Below, in pieces: positions 29,228 to 51,680 of a stretch of DNA of 64,000 bases. The DNA comes from Fibrobacter succinogenes. Its GTDB lineage: Bacteria > Fibrobacterota > Fibrobacteria > Fibrobacterales > Fibrobacteraceae. The position numbers and the translations under genes were made by a program. How positions within the stretch are numbered: the stretch's first letter is position 1; every line of letters starts with the position of its first letter. The stretch lies in the NCBI GenBank assembly GCA_902768715.1, contig CACXMH010000009.1, forward strand, positions 1 to 64,000. The letters run 5' to 3'. Under the pieces are notes generated by a model. The model was not told the DNA's origin and did not search any database. It worked only from the letters and a program-made list of their open reading frames with translations.

Positions 29228-30868
29228 TTAATAGATAATCATTAAATCCTTGGTTTTGCCGCTGGAGCCCGCCCTATAGCGGTAAACTCCTGGGACCATC
29301 TTGGATTTTATAAAGTTTTCGTCTAAACAGAGGGTTTCGCTGTCGTATTTTTCACGGAAAATCAAGTCGCCCCTGCGGTTACGGACTTCTATGAACTTCT
29401 TGTCTAGTGGCAGCGGGGCAAAACAGAGGTTTCCGTGCCGCCAGGGGGTTGGGTAGGCCCGCAGGGGCTTGGCTTCGAACTTTCCGGGCAGGGGCGACGG
29501 GTTTTCGAAACGGCTGAAAATCCAGAGGAGAGAATCGGCGGAAAAACGTTCGCTTCGCAGAGAATCCAGGGTGTTCATACTTGAAATTTTACGCAGGCGT
29601 GCGTGTCCGTCCTTGAACAGCAAGACAGAGGCTTTCCCGGTGTAGTTTTCTAAATCCGGAAAAACGTCCGCATAGTAATTGTAGGCGAATATGGAGGAAT
29701 CGGGCCTGAATCCTTCTAGAGTGAAAGTGTATGGAACCTTTTTCCAGAAAGGCTGATCCGGGGAGTACCAGGCGCTAGAATCGACGGCCTTGCTGTTCTT
29801 GCCGGAATAGGCCAGGCGCTCCGCAAAGTCCTGAAAAACATCCTGCGGATTTTTCTTGCGGGCTTCGACAGCGCTTGCGAATTGTTGGCGGAAGGAGTTG
29901 TCAGGGTTCTTGGCGAAATTTTCCCAGATGGACTTGTCAAATAGGGAATCTACGCGGTTGTACAGGTACAGGAAAAACAGGGATGCACCGTAGGCCGATT
30001 GATTTTCATCAAGGGGTTTTCCCGTATGTTCAAGGAATTCGGGAATGTAGCGGAAATAGTCGTTCACCTCGGGAGCACCGACCTCTTCCATGCCGGTGGC
30101 AGAGGCCTCGAACCAAAAGTTCAGATGCTCGTAAGGGCTCAGGTAGCGGACTTGAACGGCATGATACAGTTCATGGAATGCGGTGACGCGAATAGCCTTG
30201 TCCCATTTTTCGGCATAGGAATATTTTTCGGTGGCGTGGATGATGGGTTTTGTCGATTTCCAGTAGGAGCATTTCTTGTCGCCCACATCCAGGGTGTCGT
30301 ATTCTGGTTCATAAAAATCAACGACCATAAAATCGTTGTCAATCATCATTTCTGATGTTTGCCAGTTGTTTCTGCCAGAAAAATTCGTGATAGCGAAGCA
30401 AACCTCGCAGAATCCGGAACTGCCATGAACGGCTCTTGGGCTGCGGACAAGGTTTATTTCAAGAACTTCAACCCCGTAGAGGCCCTGCTTTACGGGTTTC
30501 TGGTAATGGACGGTGGTATCCCTGCCCTTGGGAGACCGCATCTTGTTTTTGGTAACATGTAAGTTCCAGGCCTTTTCCAGGTTGACGGCAAGGCTATCTA
30601 CGAATTTTTCCGTAGTGGCGTGTGGACCTTTCAGCACGTAAAAAATTTGGAAATGGGCGGTAGTTCTGGAATAGACGGAGTCATAGTAATCTTCGGCATC
30701 GCAGGATTCCGCAGCGTTTTTGGCCGCCACCGTAATTTTCCCTTTGTTCTCTATCCAGCTTTCCACCGCCTGCATGGTGCCGCAACGCCCATGGGCAAAG
30801 GCAGAAACGGCCAGTGCGGTCGCAAGAACTGTCCAAACAATCGAAATGTTGCGCAAAACCCTGAACAC
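29228..30868 (-). CDS. secreted zinc metallopeptidase with sorting-like tail
   Basis: The 546-residue protein has a signal peptide (SIVWTVLATALAVSAFAHG). Its gluzincin motif VTAFHELYHAVQVRYL (HEXXH) is followed by FWFEASATGMEEVG, which supplies the third ligand. The C-terminal ~60 residues (FIEVRNRRGDLIFREKY ... GVYRYRAGSSGK) look like a type-IX-style sorting domain. Start: GTG at 30868 has TAGGAG five bases upstream. The longer frame overlapping the UbiD gene is rejected. It is 8 bases from the UbiD stop. Extracellular protein or glycoprotein degradation is inferred; the family was not identified. Confidence 0.82.
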   Translation of the reverse strand: MFRVLRNISIVWTVLATALAVSAFAHGRCGTMQAVESWIENKGKITVAAKNAAESCDAEDYYDSVYSRTTAHFQIFYVLKGPHATTEKFVDSLAVNLEKAWNLHVTKNKMRSPKGRDTTVHYQKPVKQGLYGVEVLEINLVRSPRAVHGSSGFCEVCFAITNFSGRNNWQTSEMMIDNDFMVVDFYEPEYDTLDVGDKKCSYWKSTKPIIHATEKYSYAEKWDKAIRVTAFHELYHAVQVRYLSPYEHLNFWFEASATGMEEVGAPEVNDYFRYIPEFLEHTGKPLDENQSAYGASLFFLYLYNRVDSLFDKSIWENFAKNPDNSFRQQFASAVEARKKNPQDVFQDFAERLAYSGKNSKAVDSSAWYSPDQPFWKKVPYTFTLEGFRPDSSIFAYNYYADVFPDLENYTGKASVLLFKDGHARLRKISSMNTLDSLRSERFSADSLLWIFSRFENPSPLPGKFEAKPLRAYPTPWRHGNLCFAPLPLDKKFIEVRNRRGDLIFREKYDSETLCLDENFIKSKMVPGVYRYRAGSSGKTKDLMIIY

Positions 30869-30876
30869 GGTCGCTC

Positions 30877-32712
30877 CTACAAAATGCCCTTCAACTTTTT
30901 TAGGGCTGATTCCCTGACGGCCTTGTCGAAGGTAATGGCTTTCTGGTGGTGGGGCTTGATTCGGGCATCTACAATCAGGGGAGCTTCGCAGGCCCAGTGC
31001 TTGTGGACATAGCGCTCGTTTAGGCCGTACAAATCCCGGGCCGGGTCCGACCGGGTAAAGGTCAGCCACAAGAAATCTTGGAGGTTTGTCTGCGGGTGTT
31101 CCATGCCCAATGTAGCTGTGTCATCTACGATGCTTGCCCATGGGTAGTTCTCGCGGCAATTCCAGTTCGCAAGGGAATCCCGCAAGGCGGCAATTCCGCT
31201 CTCGAAAGATTCCGCCATGTCGCTGTTCCATTTCAGCACAACGACTCCAGGCATTACAATTTTGGCATCGGTAAAGGCAGCTGGCAGATGTAGGCTCTGC
31301 AGGTCGGCGGTATCGTTTCGCAGGTCGCGAATCTTGGGTCCTGCGGCGGCAATGACCAGCTTGGAGCCGTGATTTAGGGAATCGCCCGTGTAGTCCAGCG
31401 TGTCCGTGGTAGTTTCTGTCTGAAAATGTAAATCCCTGTCCGTGCGGAGTCGTTCCAGAACGTGGCCGAAAAACTCCGGAATCTTGTTCACGTCCAGCTT
31501 TGGATTGTCCTCTTTGGCGGCAATCATCAGGTACTTGGTAAGGCTCACCTGGTTAAATCCGAGAAGAGCGTTTGCCGTCTTCAAAAGCTCCATGGGTTCC
31601 CGTTCTTCGGGCTTTACGTAGGGCCTGAAACTTTCCGAGCCAAGGGCTAGGCAAAGCGGGTGCACGCCCGCCGCATCTACGGCATGTACGGCGTGGACTC
31701 CCGGCAAAGACGCAGGCACCATGGGCTTTGTCACCTTGTGGATGAAATTCCCGAAAAGGGTGTCTTCTTGCGGCGGGCGGCCTACTACGGTAAAGGGGTA
31801 GATGGCGTTCTTTTTGCAAAGGACTTTCTTTACCTTCAGATAGGGGAACAGGTGCTTTCCGGAGTAATAACCCACATGGTCTGCGAAGGGGCCTTCCGGC
31901 TTCAAGTCCGGTGCCACCTCTCCCAAGATGCAAAAATCTGCGTCGCTTGAAACCAGGTAACCGTTATGGACAAAATAGCGGAATCTTCGGCCGGAGAGCA
32001 TTCCTGCGAAAAGCAGTTCCGACAGGTTCTCGGGCATGGGCATGATGGCGGCGATGGTGTGTGCCGGTGGCCCTCCCAAGAAAATGCTGACCTTCAGCGG
32101 GCGGCCTTCTTCTATCGCTTTTTGGTGATGCCTGGCGATGTCCCGCTTGATCTGGTAATGGAGCCCGCATTCGTCGGGACTGTATTCGTTGCCGGAAATC
32201 TGGATGCGATACATGCCCAAGTTCGTGGTCATGACGCTTGCGTTTTTGCCTGGGCGGCTTGCCACCTGGGGTAACGTGAGGAATGCTCCGCCGTCGTCGG
32301 GGGCGCATTTGATTTGCGGCAAGTCTTGCAGAGTGCATTCTTCGAAGTCGGCCATGCTTCCGCTTCTAACGGGCAGGCTGTGGAGTCCGGCTTTTGCCGC
32401 CAGTATCAAATTCCCCAGATGGGGGTGCTTGAAAAAATCTACGGGATTCGACTTGAACAGCACGGCGGCCTTGGTACTTTCCAGGGTGTCCCGGAACAAA
32501 AAGTCCATGCGCTGTTGCGTGCCGTAAAGGTTTGCCACCGCCGGAAACTTGCTGCCTTTCACATTCTCAAACAGCAGGGCTGGCCCGCCTTTTTCAAAGG
32601 CGATTCGTGCCATTTCGGCCATTTCCAGGTTCGGATCCACCTCGTCGTGGATGCGTTTCAAAAGCCCTGCTTTTTCCAAATCAAGCAGGGCTTGTTCTAG
32701 AGTGGCGTACAT
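30877..32712 (-). CDS. UbiD-family decarboxylase
   Basis: The 611-residue protein belongs to the UbiD family of prenyl-FMN-dependent (de)carboxylases. EGPFADHVGYYS carries the catalytic Glu, and GMYRIQISGNEY and KVSIFLGGPPAHTIAAIMP match cofactor and metal-binding motifs. It is longer than E. coli UbiD (~497). Members without ubiquinone serve the futalosine menaquinone route or aromatic-acid metabolism; menaquinone is the likelier role in this phylum, but unproven. No ubiX partner is in the window. Confidence 0.88.
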   Translation of the reverse strand: MYATLEQALLDLEKAGLLKRIHDEVDPNLEMAEMARIAFEKGGPALLFENVKGSKFPAVANLYGTQQRMDFLFRDTLESTKAAVLFKSNPVDFFKHPHLGNLILAAKAGLHSLPVRSGSMADFEECTLQDLPQIKCAPDDGGAFLTLPQVASRPGKNASVMTTNLGMYRIQISGNEYSPDECGLHYQIKRDIARHHQKAIEEGRPLKVSIFLGGPPAHTIAAIMPMPENLSELLFAGMLSGRRFRYFVHNGYLVSSDADFCILGEVAPDLKPEGPFADHVGYYSGKHLFPYLKVKKVLCKKNAIYPFTVVGRPPQEDTLFGNFIHKVTKPMVPASLPGVHAVHAVDAAGVHPLCLALGSESFRPYVKPEEREPMELLKTANALLGFNQVSLTKYLMIAAKEDNPKLDVNKIPEFFGHVLERLRTDRDLHFQTETTTDTLDYTGDSLNHGSKLVIAAAGPKIRDLRNDTADLQSLHLPAAFTDAKIVMPGVVVLKWNSDMAESFESGIAALRDSLANWNCRENYPWASIVDDTATLGMEHPQTNLQDFLWLTFTRSDPARDLYGLNERYVHKHWACEAPLIVDARIKPHHQKAITFDKAVRESALKKLKGIL

Positions 32713-34981: not shown

Positions 34982-36865
34982 CTATTCCGCTTCTTGCATC
35001 TTGTTGGACATGGGGTCGATGAAGATGGGGCATTTGTACTTGTGGCTTACGCCCAGCCTGTTGGAATTCACGGACAGGGTGAGGGTCTTGTTCTGGGAAT
35101 CCAGCCAGTAGATGGCGTCGGAATCACGCAGGTAGGGCCTCGGGCCTTCAAAGCCTTCTTCGGTGGGTATCAGTTCTCCGCCAAGGAACAGGGGAATGTC
35201 CAGGCTCTTGTACAGGTCCAGCATCACGAAGGACCTGCGCTCGTGAATGTCGTCCAGTTCAAGCCGTCCGTCTATCTTCAGGTGGTCCAGACCGTCAATC
35301 ATCACGATGAGGTCGGAATTCTGTTTCCGCTCTTCTTTCAAGATGCTCATCATCTCGTTGTTGTCGAAGGTGGGGTAGTCTTCCCAGATTTCTAGACGGT
35401 TTGTCCGGACCAGGTTCATGAGCTTTTTGGTGGCTTCGAGAATCTTGCCGTTAATCGCATCGTCTTCGTTTTGCTTTCGCACCGTAAGGATAGATTCGCC
35501 TGTTTCCATGGCCACCATGCGGTCAAAAATCTGCCGGCGGGGCGTTTCCAGGGCGATGTAGATAATCTTCAAGATGGGGTTGCTGTCTATAAGATCCAGG
35601 GCAAGGCTAGACAGGAGCGAAGTCTTGAGGCCAAAGGGCTTGGAAGAAACGAAGAAACAACCGGACTGGATACCGTCGATTTCCTTGGTGAGTTTCGGGA
35701 AATTGTTCAGGGCGTAGCCCACGCAGGTGTCTGGAGGGCAGCCCATGGCGGCATCGTAGTTCTCCTTGATATCCTGGAGCAGCATAGAACGGCGGTGGGT
35801 GTGAACCGTGTCCTCTTCGGTCTTGTCGATAAGGTCAAGCAGGTAATCGGCGCCCTTGTCGCGGACCAGTACATCTACCGTTTCGTCCTTGGACAGCACG
35901 ATAGACTTGAAACGCATGTCCAGTTCTTCGGCCATTTTCAGATAGCCCTGGATACGGTATTCCTGTTCGCGTCGGTTGTCTTCGCGCCTGAGAATGACGG
36001 TAGCAGAATCGGCACCGCAGGCCTTGAGCTTGAGCAGATGGCTCAGGGTCAGTTCCTGGTACATGGTGGAAACCACGCCGGGAATTCCCGCCAGGTCTGC
36101 AGTCAGGGCATCAAAAAATCCTTCTACGATGATGGGGCTTGTATTTTCGGGCTGGATATTGAAGGGAATGTCGCTTGGGCCCGAAGCAAAAGAAACATAG
36201 GGGTGAGGTTTGCCGTCGTCTTCCATGAGGCGGCCATACACAGAATGGATGAGTCCTTTGGAATTGCGTGCGGGGATGGTAATTCGAGGTTCGTGGTAGG
36301 CTTCCAGGTTGTCCAGGTAGAAACTGACCTGGTGGCGTTCTAGCCCAGAAAGCATGCAATAGCTAAAGAAGGGCTCCGGGTCGCCGCTGTAGTAGCCCAG
36401 ACCGTAGAGTTGGGCTTGCCCGATGCTCCAGCCCCTGGACTGCAGAAATTCTTCGGAAGAAGGGCTCTTGCAGGCGGCCCAGTGACAATAGCGGACAAAG
36501 CATTCCAGGACCTTGGACTTTTCGCCACCGACTTCCTTGAGCAAAAGATGGTCGTCTTTCTTGGTGTCCTGCTCCTGTTCGAGTCCGCCCAAAAATTCCA
36601 GGGCTTCGGCCCGCGCAGTAGGCTCATCCATGCCGTTGAATCGGCTCCGCATCACGAATTCCACCAGGTCGCCTTCGCTACCGCACTGGAGGCAGCGGTA
36701 ACGCCAGTAACCTAGGGCGTCATAGAAGAACAGGGAGGTCTCTTCGGGAGCATGGAACGGACAACTGGAAATCAGGTTCCGGCCCCACCGGCTGAGGGGA
36801 ATTCCCAACTGACGGGGGTGAGTCTTTACATGTACAAAACCTGAGTTTTCCTGGTCGATAAGCAT
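34982..36865 (-). CDS. DnaG/DnaB-like primase-helicase fusion, degenerate
   Basis: The 627-residue protein has a CHC2 zinc finger (CPFH at 35-38, Cys58 and Cys61), then the DnaG core (HEPRITIPARNSKGLIHSVYG at ~191-211). A TOPRIM domain with the EGFFDAL glutamate (~248) precedes a DnaB-like RecA domain (~385-627). Two positions are altered. The TOPRIM Asp pair expected near 290-300 reads LRREDNRREQ. The Walker A reads SKPFGLKTS (408-416), with Leu where Gly precedes Lys. Walker B is LIVMIDGLDH. The plan recalls phage T7 gp4 and Twinkle. It faces ruvC across 79 bases. A non-catalytic or domesticated role is possible. Confidence 0.85.
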   Translation of the reverse strand: MLIDQENSGFVHVKTHPRQLGIPLSRWGRNLISSCPFHAPEETSLFFYDALGYWRYRCLQCGSEGDLVEFVMRSRFNGMDEPTARAEALEFLGGLEQEQDTKKDDHLLLKEVGGEKSKVLECFVRYCHWAACKSPSSEEFLQSRGWSIGQAQLYGLGYYSGDPEPFFSYCMLSGLERHQVSFYLDNLEAYHEPRITIPARNSKGLIHSVYGRLMEDDGKPHPYVSFASGPSDIPFNIQPENTSPIIVEGFFDALTADLAGIPGVVSTMYQELTLSHLLKLKACGADSATVILRREDNRREQEYRIQGYLKMAEELDMRFKSIVLSKDETVDVLVRDKGADYLLDLIDKTEEDTVHTHRRSMLLQDIKENYDAAMGCPPDTCVGYALNNFPKLTKEIDGIQSGCFFVSSKPFGLKTSLLSSLALDLIDSNPILKIIYIALETPRRQIFDRMVAMETGESILTVRKQNEDDAINGKILEATKKLMNLVRTNRLEIWEDYPTFDNNEMMSILKEERKQNSDLIVMIDGLDHLKIDGRLELDDIHERRSFVMLDLYKSLDIPLFLGGELIPTEEGFEGPRPYLRDSDAIYWLDSQNKTLTLSVNSNRLGVSHKYKCPIFIDPMSNKMQEAE

Positions 36866-36944
36866 AGGGAGCCTCCATATAGGAATCTAATAAAAAATAC
36901 CCGGAATGGAACACTTTTTAGGTCATTTTATCTACTTTTTGGCT

Positions 36945-37511
36945 ATGGTTATTCTCGGCATCGACCCGGGCTCTATTACGACAGGATACGCCTTTCTGGA
37001 AAAGAATCCGAAGGGGTTTTCGGTGCTGGAATACGGCACCATCCATTCACCGGCATCTAAGTCGTTGGAGGACCGTCTATTACAGATTATCACCAAGCTG
37101 GAATCCCTGCTGGACCAATACCGGCCGGACGCCCTGGCCATGGAAGGGGTGTTCTTTGCCAAAAATGCCAAGAGCGCCCTGGTACTCGGACATATCCGCG
37201 GGGCGGTTCTTGTGGCTTGCCGCAAGCGGGGCATGAGCTTTGACGAATACCCGCCCAAGGTGGTCAAGCAGTCCGTTACCGGCGATGGTGCTGCCTCTAA
37301 GGAACAGGTGGCCCACATGGTCTTTGCACAGCTCGGGATACAGGGCTCTGACCTTCCGCTGGACGCTTCGGACGCCCTGGCCATCGCCTGGACCCACGGA
37401 AATCCGCCGCCCTTGACTGCGGCTCTGAAAAAACGGCCTACGGTCCGCAAGAAAAAGGCCTCTGTCCAGCAGTGGAAAGACCTGATCAAGAAAATGGGAG
37501 TGGAAATTTAA
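36945..37511 (+). CDS. ruvC: Holliday junction resolvase RuvC
   Basis: The 188-residue endonuclease cuts four-way junctions during recombination. Acidic residues are in place: GIDPGSITTGYA (first Asp), LAMEGVFFAKN (Glu), and LDASDALAIAW (final Asp pair). ATG 36945 gives the standard N-terminus MVILGIDPG; the frame from 36906 adds 13 unlikely residues. The C-terminal ~30 residues are a basic tail. The stop overlaps the next ATG (TAATG). ruvA and ruvB are not in the window. Confidence 0.96.
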   Translation: MVILGIDPGSITTGYAFLEKNPKGFSVLEYGTIHSPASKSLEDRLLQIITKLESLLDQYRPDALAMEGVFFAKNAKSALVLGHIRGAVLVACRKRGMSFDEYPPKVVKQSVTGDGAASKEQVAHMVFAQLGIQGSDLPLDASDALAIAWTHGNPPPLTAALKKRPTVRKKKASVQQWKDLIKKMGVEI

Positions 37512-48548: not shown

Positions 48549-49808
48549 TTAATCTTTTCTTTGCCTAAAAGTAGGGGCTTTTTGCACAAAAAGTGTTTTA
48601 TGGGCGGGTTTTATGGGATTTTGGGCTGGTTTTTGCCTTTTTCCGCCAAGTAACCCCGCCCGATCCGGCACGAAAATGGACAAAATCTCGAATTTCCCGC
48701 GGCCAGGCTCCAGATAAAGGGGGATGGTCTTGCGGAGCACGTACCCCTGGTTCCTGAACTGCTTGATGAGTTTTTGGGCCTGTTCCAGGTCGGCGGTTTC
48801 GATCAAGATGCGCTCGGGCCTGACTCCGGCGATTGTTTCGACAGACCCTGCCGGTAAGGGCTCCCCTTCGGGCAGGTTGAAATAGAAGGTCCAGCGCCCG
48901 TCGTTGTCGGACTTGGAAAAGAACTTGGTGAGAAATCCCGGGTCAAAGAACCCCCTGTGGAACCGCATGTTTTCTTGTGGGGCGAGGCGGCTGTTCTGCC
49001 GGCTGGACTCCATGGAGGTTTCGCGGCAGTCCAGACTCTCCACTTGAGCGAACAGAGGAGAAAGGGTGGCTGCAACAAAGCTTGAGCCCGAGTAAAACTC
49101 GAAAAACTTGTCCCCCTTTGCAGGATGGATAGCGCCGGCAATTTTTTCCGAGAGCTTTAGCCAGGCGTCTTTGATGCGGGGGGCCCAGTCCAGTACGTGC
49201 ATGCAGAAACCGGAATCGCCTAGGGGCATAAAGTCCTTGCCGAAATTGCACCTGGATTCGATGCGGGTGCTTTGATGTATGCTCGGGTCAAAGGGCACAA
49301 AAGGTTGGCACTGAATTTGGTGGCAGCTGATGACTTCGGGGCAGGAACGTTCCAGAAAATCTACGAAGGTCTTGCATTCGTGGGCGGAATTCTTTCCACG
49401 GAGGTTCGCCTGCACTACCAGGGCGAAGTTGCCGTTGCCACAGGCCCTGAACCAAATGGTACGGATGGCCTTGCGAAAATTGCGCAGGTGTTCTTTTTTG
49501 ATTTGTTCGAAAATTTGCGTGACGACTTCGGGTGTGTCCATCCCCTTTGCGGGAGCATCCAACAGCAGGCTTTCGTGACCATTTATGAGTTTGTTGTAAA
49601 TTTTCCAGTCGGAATTTTCGGGTTTGGCCTCTGCGGTGAACCAGGCCTGGACTTTTCCAGGGATTCTCATGTCGTGGGTCCAGGAACTGAACTGCTTCTG
49701 GATGTCTTCGAAACTTGCCGCTCTACGGACAACCGGCTTTGGTGCGGCTTGCGGAGTTTCTTGTTGTGGACGTTTTCTCACGTCACCCTTTTTTACAAAA
49801 TGATTCAT
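48549..49808 (-). CDS. TrmA-like RNA methyltransferase, degenerate
   Basis: The 419-residue protein has the order of class I uracil-C5 RNA methyltransferases (TrmA/RlmD). An RNA-binding front region is followed by GDSGFCMHVLDWAPRIKDAW (like GxFxQ) and the SAM-binding FFEFYSGSSFVAATLSPLF. The C-terminal half lacks the DPPRxG motif and the nucleophilic Cys loop; PERILIETADLEQAQKL stands there instead. A binding-only or altered role is possible. ATG 49808. A charged N-terminal tail (~1-30) precedes the fold. Confidence 0.7.
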   Translation of the reverse strand: MNHFVKKGDVRKRPQQETPQAAPKPVVRRAASFEDIQKQFSSWTHDMRIPGKVQAWFTAEAKPENSDWKIYNKLINGHESLLLDAPAKGMDTPEVVTQIFEQIKKEHLRNFRKAIRTIWFRACGNGNFALVVQANLRGKNSAHECKTFVDFLERSCPEVISCHQIQCQPFVPFDPSIHQSTRIESRCNFGKDFMPLGDSGFCMHVLDWAPRIKDAWLKLSEKIAGAIHPAKGDKFFEFYSGSSFVAATLSPLFAQVESLDCRETSMESSRQNSRLAPQENMRFHRGFFDPGFLTKFFSKSDNDGRWTFYFNLPEGEPLPAGSVETIAGVRPERILIETADLEQAQKLIKQFRNQGYVLRKTIPLYLEPGRGKFEILSIFVPDRAGLLGGKRQKPAQNPIKPAHKTLFVQKAPTFRQRKD

Positions 49809-49961: not shown

Positions 49962-51680
49962 CTACACCCAGAATCTCGGGTAAATCCAGGAGCAGTCCCG
50001 AGCCAGCAGTTTCGGGAATTCCCTGAAGGAACCGTTAATCTGGAACTGGTTCAGGCCGCCTTCTACCGGCGTGAGTTTCAGCACGCTGTCGGCACGGGAT
50101 TCCAGGTAGGGGTATTCGTCATTGTTGCAGGCGGCCACTACGGCGCAGCCCGTGAGGGCGATGATGGTGTCCACCATCTGCATCAAAATCTGGTGGGGAG
50201 CCCCGGTGATGCGCATGGCTTTCGGGTTGTGGAACACCGCCGAAATGGGGTCGATGACGATAGTGCGGTAATTGTGGTTTCCCATCTTCTTTGCACCTTC
50301 TACGCGCTTTGCGATAAGCTGTGCCGTCTCCAGCGGAGAAAGGGCAACACCTCGCAGATTCAAGAAACCGAAGTTTCCAGTGCTGGCGGGAAGCCCGCGC
50401 TTGTTGGCCAGTAGGTATAGACGGTTCAGGAACACGGACTTGGTAAGTTCGAAGTTGATGAACAGCACGTCGCTCATGGTGGTGGCGTTTCCGAACCATT
50501 CCTCGCCGTAGCAAAGCGAAAGACCCAGATCCATCAGGGCCATGGACTTTCCGCATTTCGGGGGAGCGGTGAACAAGAAGAATTCACCGGCCTGGAGCAT
50601 GTTCTGGATTAAGACTTCGTCTTTTTTCGGGGCCTCTTCGCTGTCGCTGGCAAGCTCAATGAGGGGCTTGCCGTCTAGGGAGTATTCCACCCACTGTTTC
50701 CATTCGACGAAGTTCTTGGCGCCTTGTTCCAAGCTGATCAAGTACTGCTGCTTTCCGCCACGGAGCACGCCCGGCATGCGGACCATCATGCCCGGGTTCC
50801 TGTTGCTGGAATCCACCAGGAAACCTTGGGAAGCAAGGGTGCTGAACAGGAAATCGACCCGTTCGTCGTATTCCTCTTGGTTGTCGGCTCCAATCTTTAC
50901 CCAGGCCTGCACGGAGTTTGCGCCGGTGTTGATGAGGGCGGCGCAGGGGAGGTTCAACGCCTTGAAATAGGCCAGCTGCTTGGCTAGCGTCATCTTGGGG
51001 TTATCTACCATCACGTAGCGGTATTTCCAACTCTCGTCGGAGGCGTCTTCGCCACCCTTGGTGGCGTTGATGCAGATAAGGGCTCCTTCGGGGCTGTCCA
51101 GGCTCTTCATGATTTTCTTGATGGCGTCGTCCTGGCCTACGATGTTGGACACCAGCTCCGACGTGGCGGTAGGCGTGTCCGAAATCTTGAAGTCAACGGT
51201 TTCGTCTTCTTCGAAAGTCGCTTCCAGAAGCTTGGCCAGGTCCTTACGCCAGTCGGCGGCAGGCCATGGGATGGACAGGGCTTCGGGGTCAATCTTGAAA
51301 TTCTGTAACAGTTCCAGGGACTGGGTGTCAAGACCCATGGCCAGCATTTGTTCCATGGGAATCATGCTGGCGTTGAATGCCGGCATGATGGTGGTCTGTG
51401 GCGGCACCGCCTGGGAGGATTCCTTATGGGCTTCGGCTTTTACTTCTTCCCGTTCAGAAGAGCGCTTTTCGCTGGAGAAGGCCCTGCGCAGAATCTGTTC
51501 CACTTCGTCGTCGGCCATGCCCCGCTCACGGGCAAGTCCTCCAATCTGGAAGGATGTGTCCATAAAGGTCCAGCCGTCTTCCATGGCGGCTTCGGCGGCC
51601 TTGTACAGCTCGCTCTTTAGGTCCTTGTCCTCGAATTTTCCCTTCAGGAACTGGTTGACAATCTTTCTTGCGCTTTCCAT
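49962..51680 (-). CDS. AEP-primase-like / RepA-like ATPase fusion
   Basis: The 572-residue protein has a helical N-terminus like a PriCT module (~1-70). An archaeo-eukaryotic-primase-like domain (~190-320) follows: VMVDNPKMTLAKQ, NTGANSVQAWVKIGA and DSSNRNPGMMVRMPGVLRGG match the three motif regions of plasmid prim-pols. The RepA/AAA_25 ATPase domain (~355-560) has intact Walker A TAPPKCGKS (371-379) and Walker B TIVIDPIS. The motif-II His of the primase is Gln257 here, and motif I lacks a clear acidic pair. ATPase intact, primase doubtful. It lies among housekeeping RNA genes with no phage genes nearby. Confidence 0.8.
   Translation of the reverse strand: MESARKIVNQFLKGKFEDKDLKSELYKAAEAAMEDGWTFMDTSFQIGGLARERGMADDEVEQILRRAFSSEKRSSEREEVKAEAHKESSQAVPPQTTIMPAFNASMIPMEQMLAMGLDTQSLELLQNFKIDPEALSIPWPAADWRKDLAKLLEATFEEDETVDFKISDTPTATSELVSNIVGQDDAIKKIMKSLDSPEGALICINATKGGEDASDESWKYRYVMVDNPKMTLAKQLAYFKALNLPCAALINTGANSVQAWVKIGADNQEEYDERVDFLFSTLASQGFLVDSSNRNPGMMVRMPGVLRGGKQQYLISLEQGAKNFVEWKQWVEYSLDGKPLIELASDSEEAPKKDEVLIQNMLQAGEFFLFTAPPKCGKSMALMDLGLSLCYGEEWFGNATTMSDVLFINFELTKSVFLNRLYLLANKRGLPASTGNFGFLNLRGVALSPLETAQLIAKRVEGAKKMGNHNYRTIVIDPISAVFHNPKAMRITGAPHQILMQMVDTIIALTGCAVVAACNNDEYPYLESRADSVLKLTPVEGGLNQFQINGSFREFPKLLARDCSWIYPRFWV

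Follow-up and report, generated by a model that had tools for sequence, protein, structure and literature searches.

Positions 49962–51680 (minus strand) of the 64,000-nt stretch of Fibrobacter succinogenes DNA analysed here (the window; contig CACXMH010000009.1) encode, from an ATG start, a 572-aa protein in which an AEP (prim-pol) domain is fused to a RepA/RecA-type ATPase, an assignment on which sequence, profile and fold agree. The gene is fixed across nearly the whole family and in a sister family and is constrained, despite having lost residues that are invariant in its phage relatives. Our preferred explanation, to which we give about an even chance, is that this AEP fusion is a domesticated phage primase-helicase turned pseudoenzyme, serving as an ATP-switched DNA-binding accessory.

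Domain architecture and phage relatives

A Pfam scan of the AEP fusion identifies only the ATPase (AAA_25, E 5.1e-19) and leaves the AEP domain unnamed. PHROG 2597, a phage family labelled ‘DNA primase’, covers residues 171–484 (E 4.7e-70), and hhalign aligns residues 145–518 with phage primase-helicases at 100% probability (33% identity, E 1.1e-51). With tblastn, 53 phage records were matched at ~30% identity over 55–67% of the protein, mostly from Firmicutes phages and annotated as primase, primase/helicase or replicative helicase. This large phage family of AEP-RepA primase-helicases has at least 552 confirmed candidate members, while viral contigs scanned with the Fibrobacterales profile yielded no relative. 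Searching solved structures with the single sequence returned no relatives either, and a family profile and a model were needed: the Fibrobacterales profile matches RSF1010 RepA (1g8y) over the ATPase (E 3e-9), and AlphaFold2 modelled both domains of the full-length protein well (mean pLDDT 79.7). For a model of the AEP domain alone (mean pLDDT 90.3), the best Foldseek match is cyanophage S-2L PrimPol (6zp9; E 5.6e-6, probability 1.00), with RSF1010 RepB′ (3h25, 3h20; E 4e-5, probability 1.00) also found. The AEP identity of this domain far exceeds chance. Features of the window are as follows.

49962–51680, minus strand: AEP-RepA-type fusion, 572 aa, a catalytically degenerate and apparently domesticated phage primase-helicase
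51450–51680, minus strand: N-terminal four-helix segment (residues 1–77; AlphaFold2 model), in the position of phage PriCT_2
51273–51449, minus strand: variable linker (residues 78–136), mostly of low confidence (pLDDT 27–55 over most)
50646–51272, minus strand: AEP (prim-pol) domain (residues 137–345; AEP-only model and Foldseek)
50997–51023, minus strand: AEP motif I, YRYVMVDNP (residues 220–228), first acid E to D, second acid D to P
50901–50930, minus strand: AEP motif II, NTGANSVQAW (residues 251–260), His replaced by Gln258
50769–50816, minus strand: AEP motif III/IV, VDSSNRNPGMMVRMPG (residues 289–304), D290 and R301 kept, phage Arg at 298 lost
50076–50645, minus strand: RecA/RepA-type ATPase domain (residues 346–535; Pfam AAA_25, family profile to 1g8y)
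50544–50567, minus strand: Walker A, APPKCGKS (residues 372–379), kept
50244–50258, minus strand: Walker B, VIDPI (residues 475–479), kept
50085–50144, minus strand: site of phage HHHSKG...DRASGSGVFARDPDA, here CNNDEYPYLESRADS (residues 513–532), H3 lost and next loop deleted
34982–36865, minus strand: Toprim fusion, 627 aa, with DnaG-type zinc ribbon, degenerate Toprim and DnaB_C-like domain

The N-terminal segment (residues 1–77) could not be aligned confidently to phage PriCT_2, the profile alignment beginning only at residue 145. The linker has the highest dN/dS within the gene and is its least constrained part; from the C-terminal half, ~200 aa present in phages are absent. A 746-aa phage-type relative (L075, G028:C64, 1476–3713), which has PriCT_2 and a full set of intact catalytic motifs, is encoded on a contig of 5 kb in a Fibrobacter bin that is 8% contaminated, and represents either a Fibrobacter phage or contamination.

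Residues lost and kept

The alignment comprised 82 distinct phage proteins and 80 distinct Fibrobacterales proteins (76 from Fibrobacteraceae, two from genera g16/g21 and two from the sister family, f2). Motif I E-x-D, the motif II His, RLSR and HHHSKG are each present in 82/82 phage proteins. Neither the second motif I acid, the motif II His nor HHHSKG is kept in any readable Fibrobacterales copy, so that a relative with the His, raised in the preliminary description as a possible counter-example, is not found among readable copies in the order.

Motif I of the phages reads E-S-D and that of the AEP fusion D-N-P; D226 as the sole acid and TGANSVQAW as motif II (residues 252–260) agree with the earlier reading of 49962–51680 as AEP-like. 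In Fibrobacteraceae the first acid is nearly always Asp and the second always lost, with Pro, Asn, Lys or Arg replacing it in all readable Fibrobacterales copies. The f2 proteins have E-N-R or E-N-K (D226 is Glu), share the motif II Q-A-W and lack H3. The motif II form SGxxSxHAW, given earlier as usual, needs correction, as the actual phage relatives have SG[GK]KS[LIV]HAI. Q258-A259-W260 is invariant across the Fibrobacterales copies where it is readable, which points to a pocket that is altered, not drifting. The motif III acid is D290 in 73/76 Fibrobacteraceae and Glu in f2; of the three metal-binding acids, the AEP fusion keeps two. The first Arg of RLSR is not Arg in at least 74/76 Fibrobacteraceae, while the second (R301) is kept in 75/76 and is Ala in f2, which thus lacks the motif IV Arg.

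The ATPase motifs had been described as intact; this holds for Walker A, Glu411 and Walker B, but not for HHHSKG (H3) and DRASGSGVFARD, which are replaced or deleted. No His or Lys occurs at the HHHSKG position in the 76 Fibrobacteraceae, and DRASGSGVFARD, which follows H3 and is strongly conserved in phages, has been shortened away in Fibrobacterales. RecA-type helicases carry an Arg finger in the loop following H3, and we take the lost loop to be its probable location.

Distribution, neighbourhood and constraint

The AEP fusion is single-copy in the source genome and was found in 80/80 Fibrobacter genomes searched, in genera g16 and g18–g24 (apart from a few incomplete bins) and in 2/2 genomes of f2 (33–34% identity). 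Neither g15 (one genome) nor g17 (12 genomes, of which four reach at least 90% completeness) carries it, and it is therefore dispensable in part of the family. It is also absent from the remaining families of the class, and a survey of 168 phylum genomes added only a match to the ATPase domain, in G056. In the gene tree all Fibrobacterales copies group together (support 100), apart from phages and on a long stem. A tree of two neighbouring genes (histidine kinase and LysM), rooted on f2, places g15 and g17 together as sister to other Fibrobacteraceae (support 98–100). Genus g17 retains the LysM-histidine kinase pair and a homologue of the adjoining methyltransferase-like gene, and the regions around them contain no AEP remnant; a diverged copy in g17 was rejected, as there is no AEP match in either region. 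The simplest history is probably one capture before the two families split and one loss in g15 plus g17. Transfer between the families is a possible alternative, f2 being a long branch with two genomes.

On the minus strand the gene order is RNase D, 5-FTHF cyclo-ligase, TrmH, AEP fusion, degenerate methyltransferase-like protein, LysM-type protein, histidine kinase and response regulator. The block conserved in the family from the AEP fusion on includes genes for a PQQ protein, SBP, CDP-alcohol transferase, M14, VanY, RuvC, the Toprim fusion and a glycosyltransferase, and the whole block (~13 genes) is syntenic across the family. No phage genes were found in it, the neighbours being housekeeping genes; this conserved setting and the ancient distribution led us to reject a recent prophage remnant. 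The methyltransferase-like protein adjoining the AEP fusion (48549–49808, minus strand) is fast-evolving and has no Pfam match in its window copy. The copy from the sister family (L178) shows a recognisable SAM-binding motif and weakly matches Cons_hypoth95; Fibrobacter copies look degenerate, and the gene persists in g17 without the AEP fusion. In g16 and g21 (L163 and L165) the gene directly upstream of the AEP fusion encodes a distant relative (~30% identity) of an unnamed 613-aa protein at 29228–31069 of the window.

Elsewhere the source genome has an ordinary dnaG (624 aa) and dnaB (477 aa), a check proposed with the preliminary description, and also dciA. Replacement of a DnaB loader (DciA/DnaC role) was rejected, as DciA is present in 60/61 genomes, including the source.

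Comparison with eight congeners gave an overall dN/dS of 0.011–0.044 for the AEP fusion (about 0.03), with 0.02–0.043 for the AEP domain and 0–0.046 for the ATPase; against congeners with measurable divergence, both domains are under purifying selection (dN/dS ~0.02–0.05). Identity to congener G033 is 78%, similar to that of neighbouring trmH (77%) and RNase D (73%). A pseudogene was rejected on the dN/dS of ~0.03 and frames open throughout. Domestication, as suggested earlier, is supported by the housekeeping block, the constraint and fixation across Fibrobacter.

Candidate roles and comparison with known systems

If the preferred explanation is correct, a phage AEP-RepA primase-helicase would have entered the chromosome before the two Fibrobacterales families split. 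Judging from its motifs, its ability to make primers would then have gone, very probably together with translocation as a helicase, and the protein would have been kept under strong selection as a pseudoenzyme. The RecA-type domain, with Walker A, Walker B and Glu411 kept, may still bind ATP and drive assembly or release. The AEP domain, with its altered but conserved pocket (D226, Q258-A-W260, D290, R301), would be a platform for single-stranded DNA or nucleotide, DNA binding being predicted from the retained fold. We infer a cellular role for this platform, which would serve chromosome replication or repair. If it does act in the cell, the AEP fusion would count as a phage-derived pseudo-primase in bacteria, and would offer a way into replication or repair in a rumen phylum for which little genetics exists. 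Ten papers name both Fibrobacter and primase, the latter one to three times each, and judged by title or abstract none concerns such a gene.

The best-surviving of the other explanations, though unlikely, is a mediator of recombination or fork repair resembling RAD51 paralogues, in which a RecA-fold ATPase works with a DNA-binding partner domain with no link to priming. RAD51/RadA filaments are the best structural matches of the full-length model, and Walker A and B are kept while the helicase-type H3 and next loop are lost. However, the match is limited to the generic RecA core, expected of any RecA-fold ATPase, and the only linked recombination partner is ruvC (36906–37511) of the same block.

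The two primase-ATPase fusions had also been proposed as a functional pair. They are indeed of different origin, AEP-RepA type versus Toprim, and both appear impaired at the primase site, the AEP fusion lacking the second motif I acid and the Toprim fusion the DxD, which is replaced, typically by RRE. The Toprim fusion keeps its zinc ligands, and the Toprim Glu in most copies (lost in those of g16 and g21); its P-loop is odd (SSKPFGLKTS, with the glycine shifted) yet shared between genera, and the impairment may thus extend from the primase site to the ATPase. Both fusions occur together in nine Fibrobacteraceae genera, mostly on one contig ~13–17 kb apart, both are unusually diverged in g16 and g21, and both are absent from g15 and g17. 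The Toprim fusion is also missing from f2; in g15, g17 and f2 only a DnaG-type match was found. The independent distribution that would argue against a pair is thus seen in f2 only (two genomes), with its AEP fusion alone. Co-absence maps to a single basal branch, so the overlap amounts to about one evolutionary event and is weak evidence for a pair, and the 13 kb spacing is explained by synteny of the whole block, in which ~13 other genes are equally syntenic. Since g15 and g17 are basal in the family and f2 has the AEP fusion only, the Toprim fusion looks younger, and is related to the AEP fusion by the gene block only. A functional pair is left unsupported: that the two form one complex is distinctly unlikely, as is the broader proposal that an ATP-switched, non-catalytic pseudo-primase was later joined in the same block by a second degenerate primase-helicase of another class with which it cooperates. 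The genomes with the most diverged copies of both fusions (G062 and G128, from g16 and g21) encode extra ATPase-only RepA-type proteins of 361–374 aa (L167, G062:C49, 7657–8739; L168, G128:C24, 2745–3866). Two copies of both fusions, ~95% and ~75–80% identical to the window, are present in G035 (G035:C11 and G035:C15), probably a mixed bin of two species.

Improbable, too, is a still-active primase-polymerase with a rewired site, in which Gln258 replaces His, and D226 and D290, perhaps with another acid, hold the metals. Gln occurs at the motif II His position in active AEPs (Kazlauskas et al., PMC5862659), RepB′ is a top structural match, D226 and D290 (each Glu in f2) and Q258 are conserved, and the AEP domain is strongly constrained. 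Loss of the His, earlier offered as proof of impairment, is therefore weak evidence of inactivation by itself, and His to Gln alone should not be taken as the death of an AEP. The case for inactivation is carried by the absence of the second motif I acid, which is fixed in two families, with all readable copies having Pro, Asn, Lys or Arg instead, and is a stronger sign than the Gln; PolpTN2, also an AEP, is inactivated when both motif I acids are replaced (PMC5862659). Activity is further opposed by R301 being Ala in f2 and by the normal dnaG of the host. Some residual catalysis is possible, given the two remaining metal acids and the tolerance of Gln in some active AEPs.

The least probable explanation is an anti-phage decoy, a dead protein that would poison the hexamers formed by primase-helicases of related phages, either by entering them or by competing for the phage origin. 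Homologues of this kind are widespread in phages, and an intact phage-type copy occurs in one Fibrobacter bin (G028:C64), but at ~30% identity to phage proteins mixed rings are unlikely, and a gene found in every genome of the genus, in a housekeeping block and with dN/dS of ~0.03, contrasts with defence genes, which are usually patchy and fast-evolving.

The preferred explanation, a phage-derived pseudoenzyme retained by its host, can be set against several known systems. Most AEP genes found in bacterial chromosomes are, in one published view, remnants of mobile elements (PMC5862659). PHROG 2597 proteins, from Streptococcus Javan phages, Faecalibacterium phage FP_Lugh and Bacillus phage BCJA1c, have an AEP domain followed by a RepA-type ATPase and the same motif order as the AEP fusion, with 33% identity over ~360 residues (profile alignment). 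However, they are ~740–770 aa, with a further C-terminal region, have an N-terminal PriCT_2 (in the one scanned) and keep the catalytic motifs (82/82 aligned), and their genes sit among phage replication genes rather than in a conserved chromosomal housekeeping block. The PrimPol-PV1 AEPs PolpTN2 and RSF1010 RepB′ (PMC5862659) share the AEP fold and the motif II Gln, but keep both motif I acids, PolpTN2 being active, while the AEP fusion lacks the second. The hexameric helicase RSF1010 RepA (1g8y) likewise has Walker A and B, but carries HHASKG at the H3 position; in the Fibrobacterales protein both H3 and the loop after it are gone. An analogy, and no more, is offered by non-catalytic primase subunits such as archaeal PriX (termed noncatalytic in PMC12019639), which cells keep although they do not catalyse priming; PriX, however, belongs to the host primase, whereas the AEP fusion joins an AEP domain of phage derivation to an ATPase and resides in bacteria.
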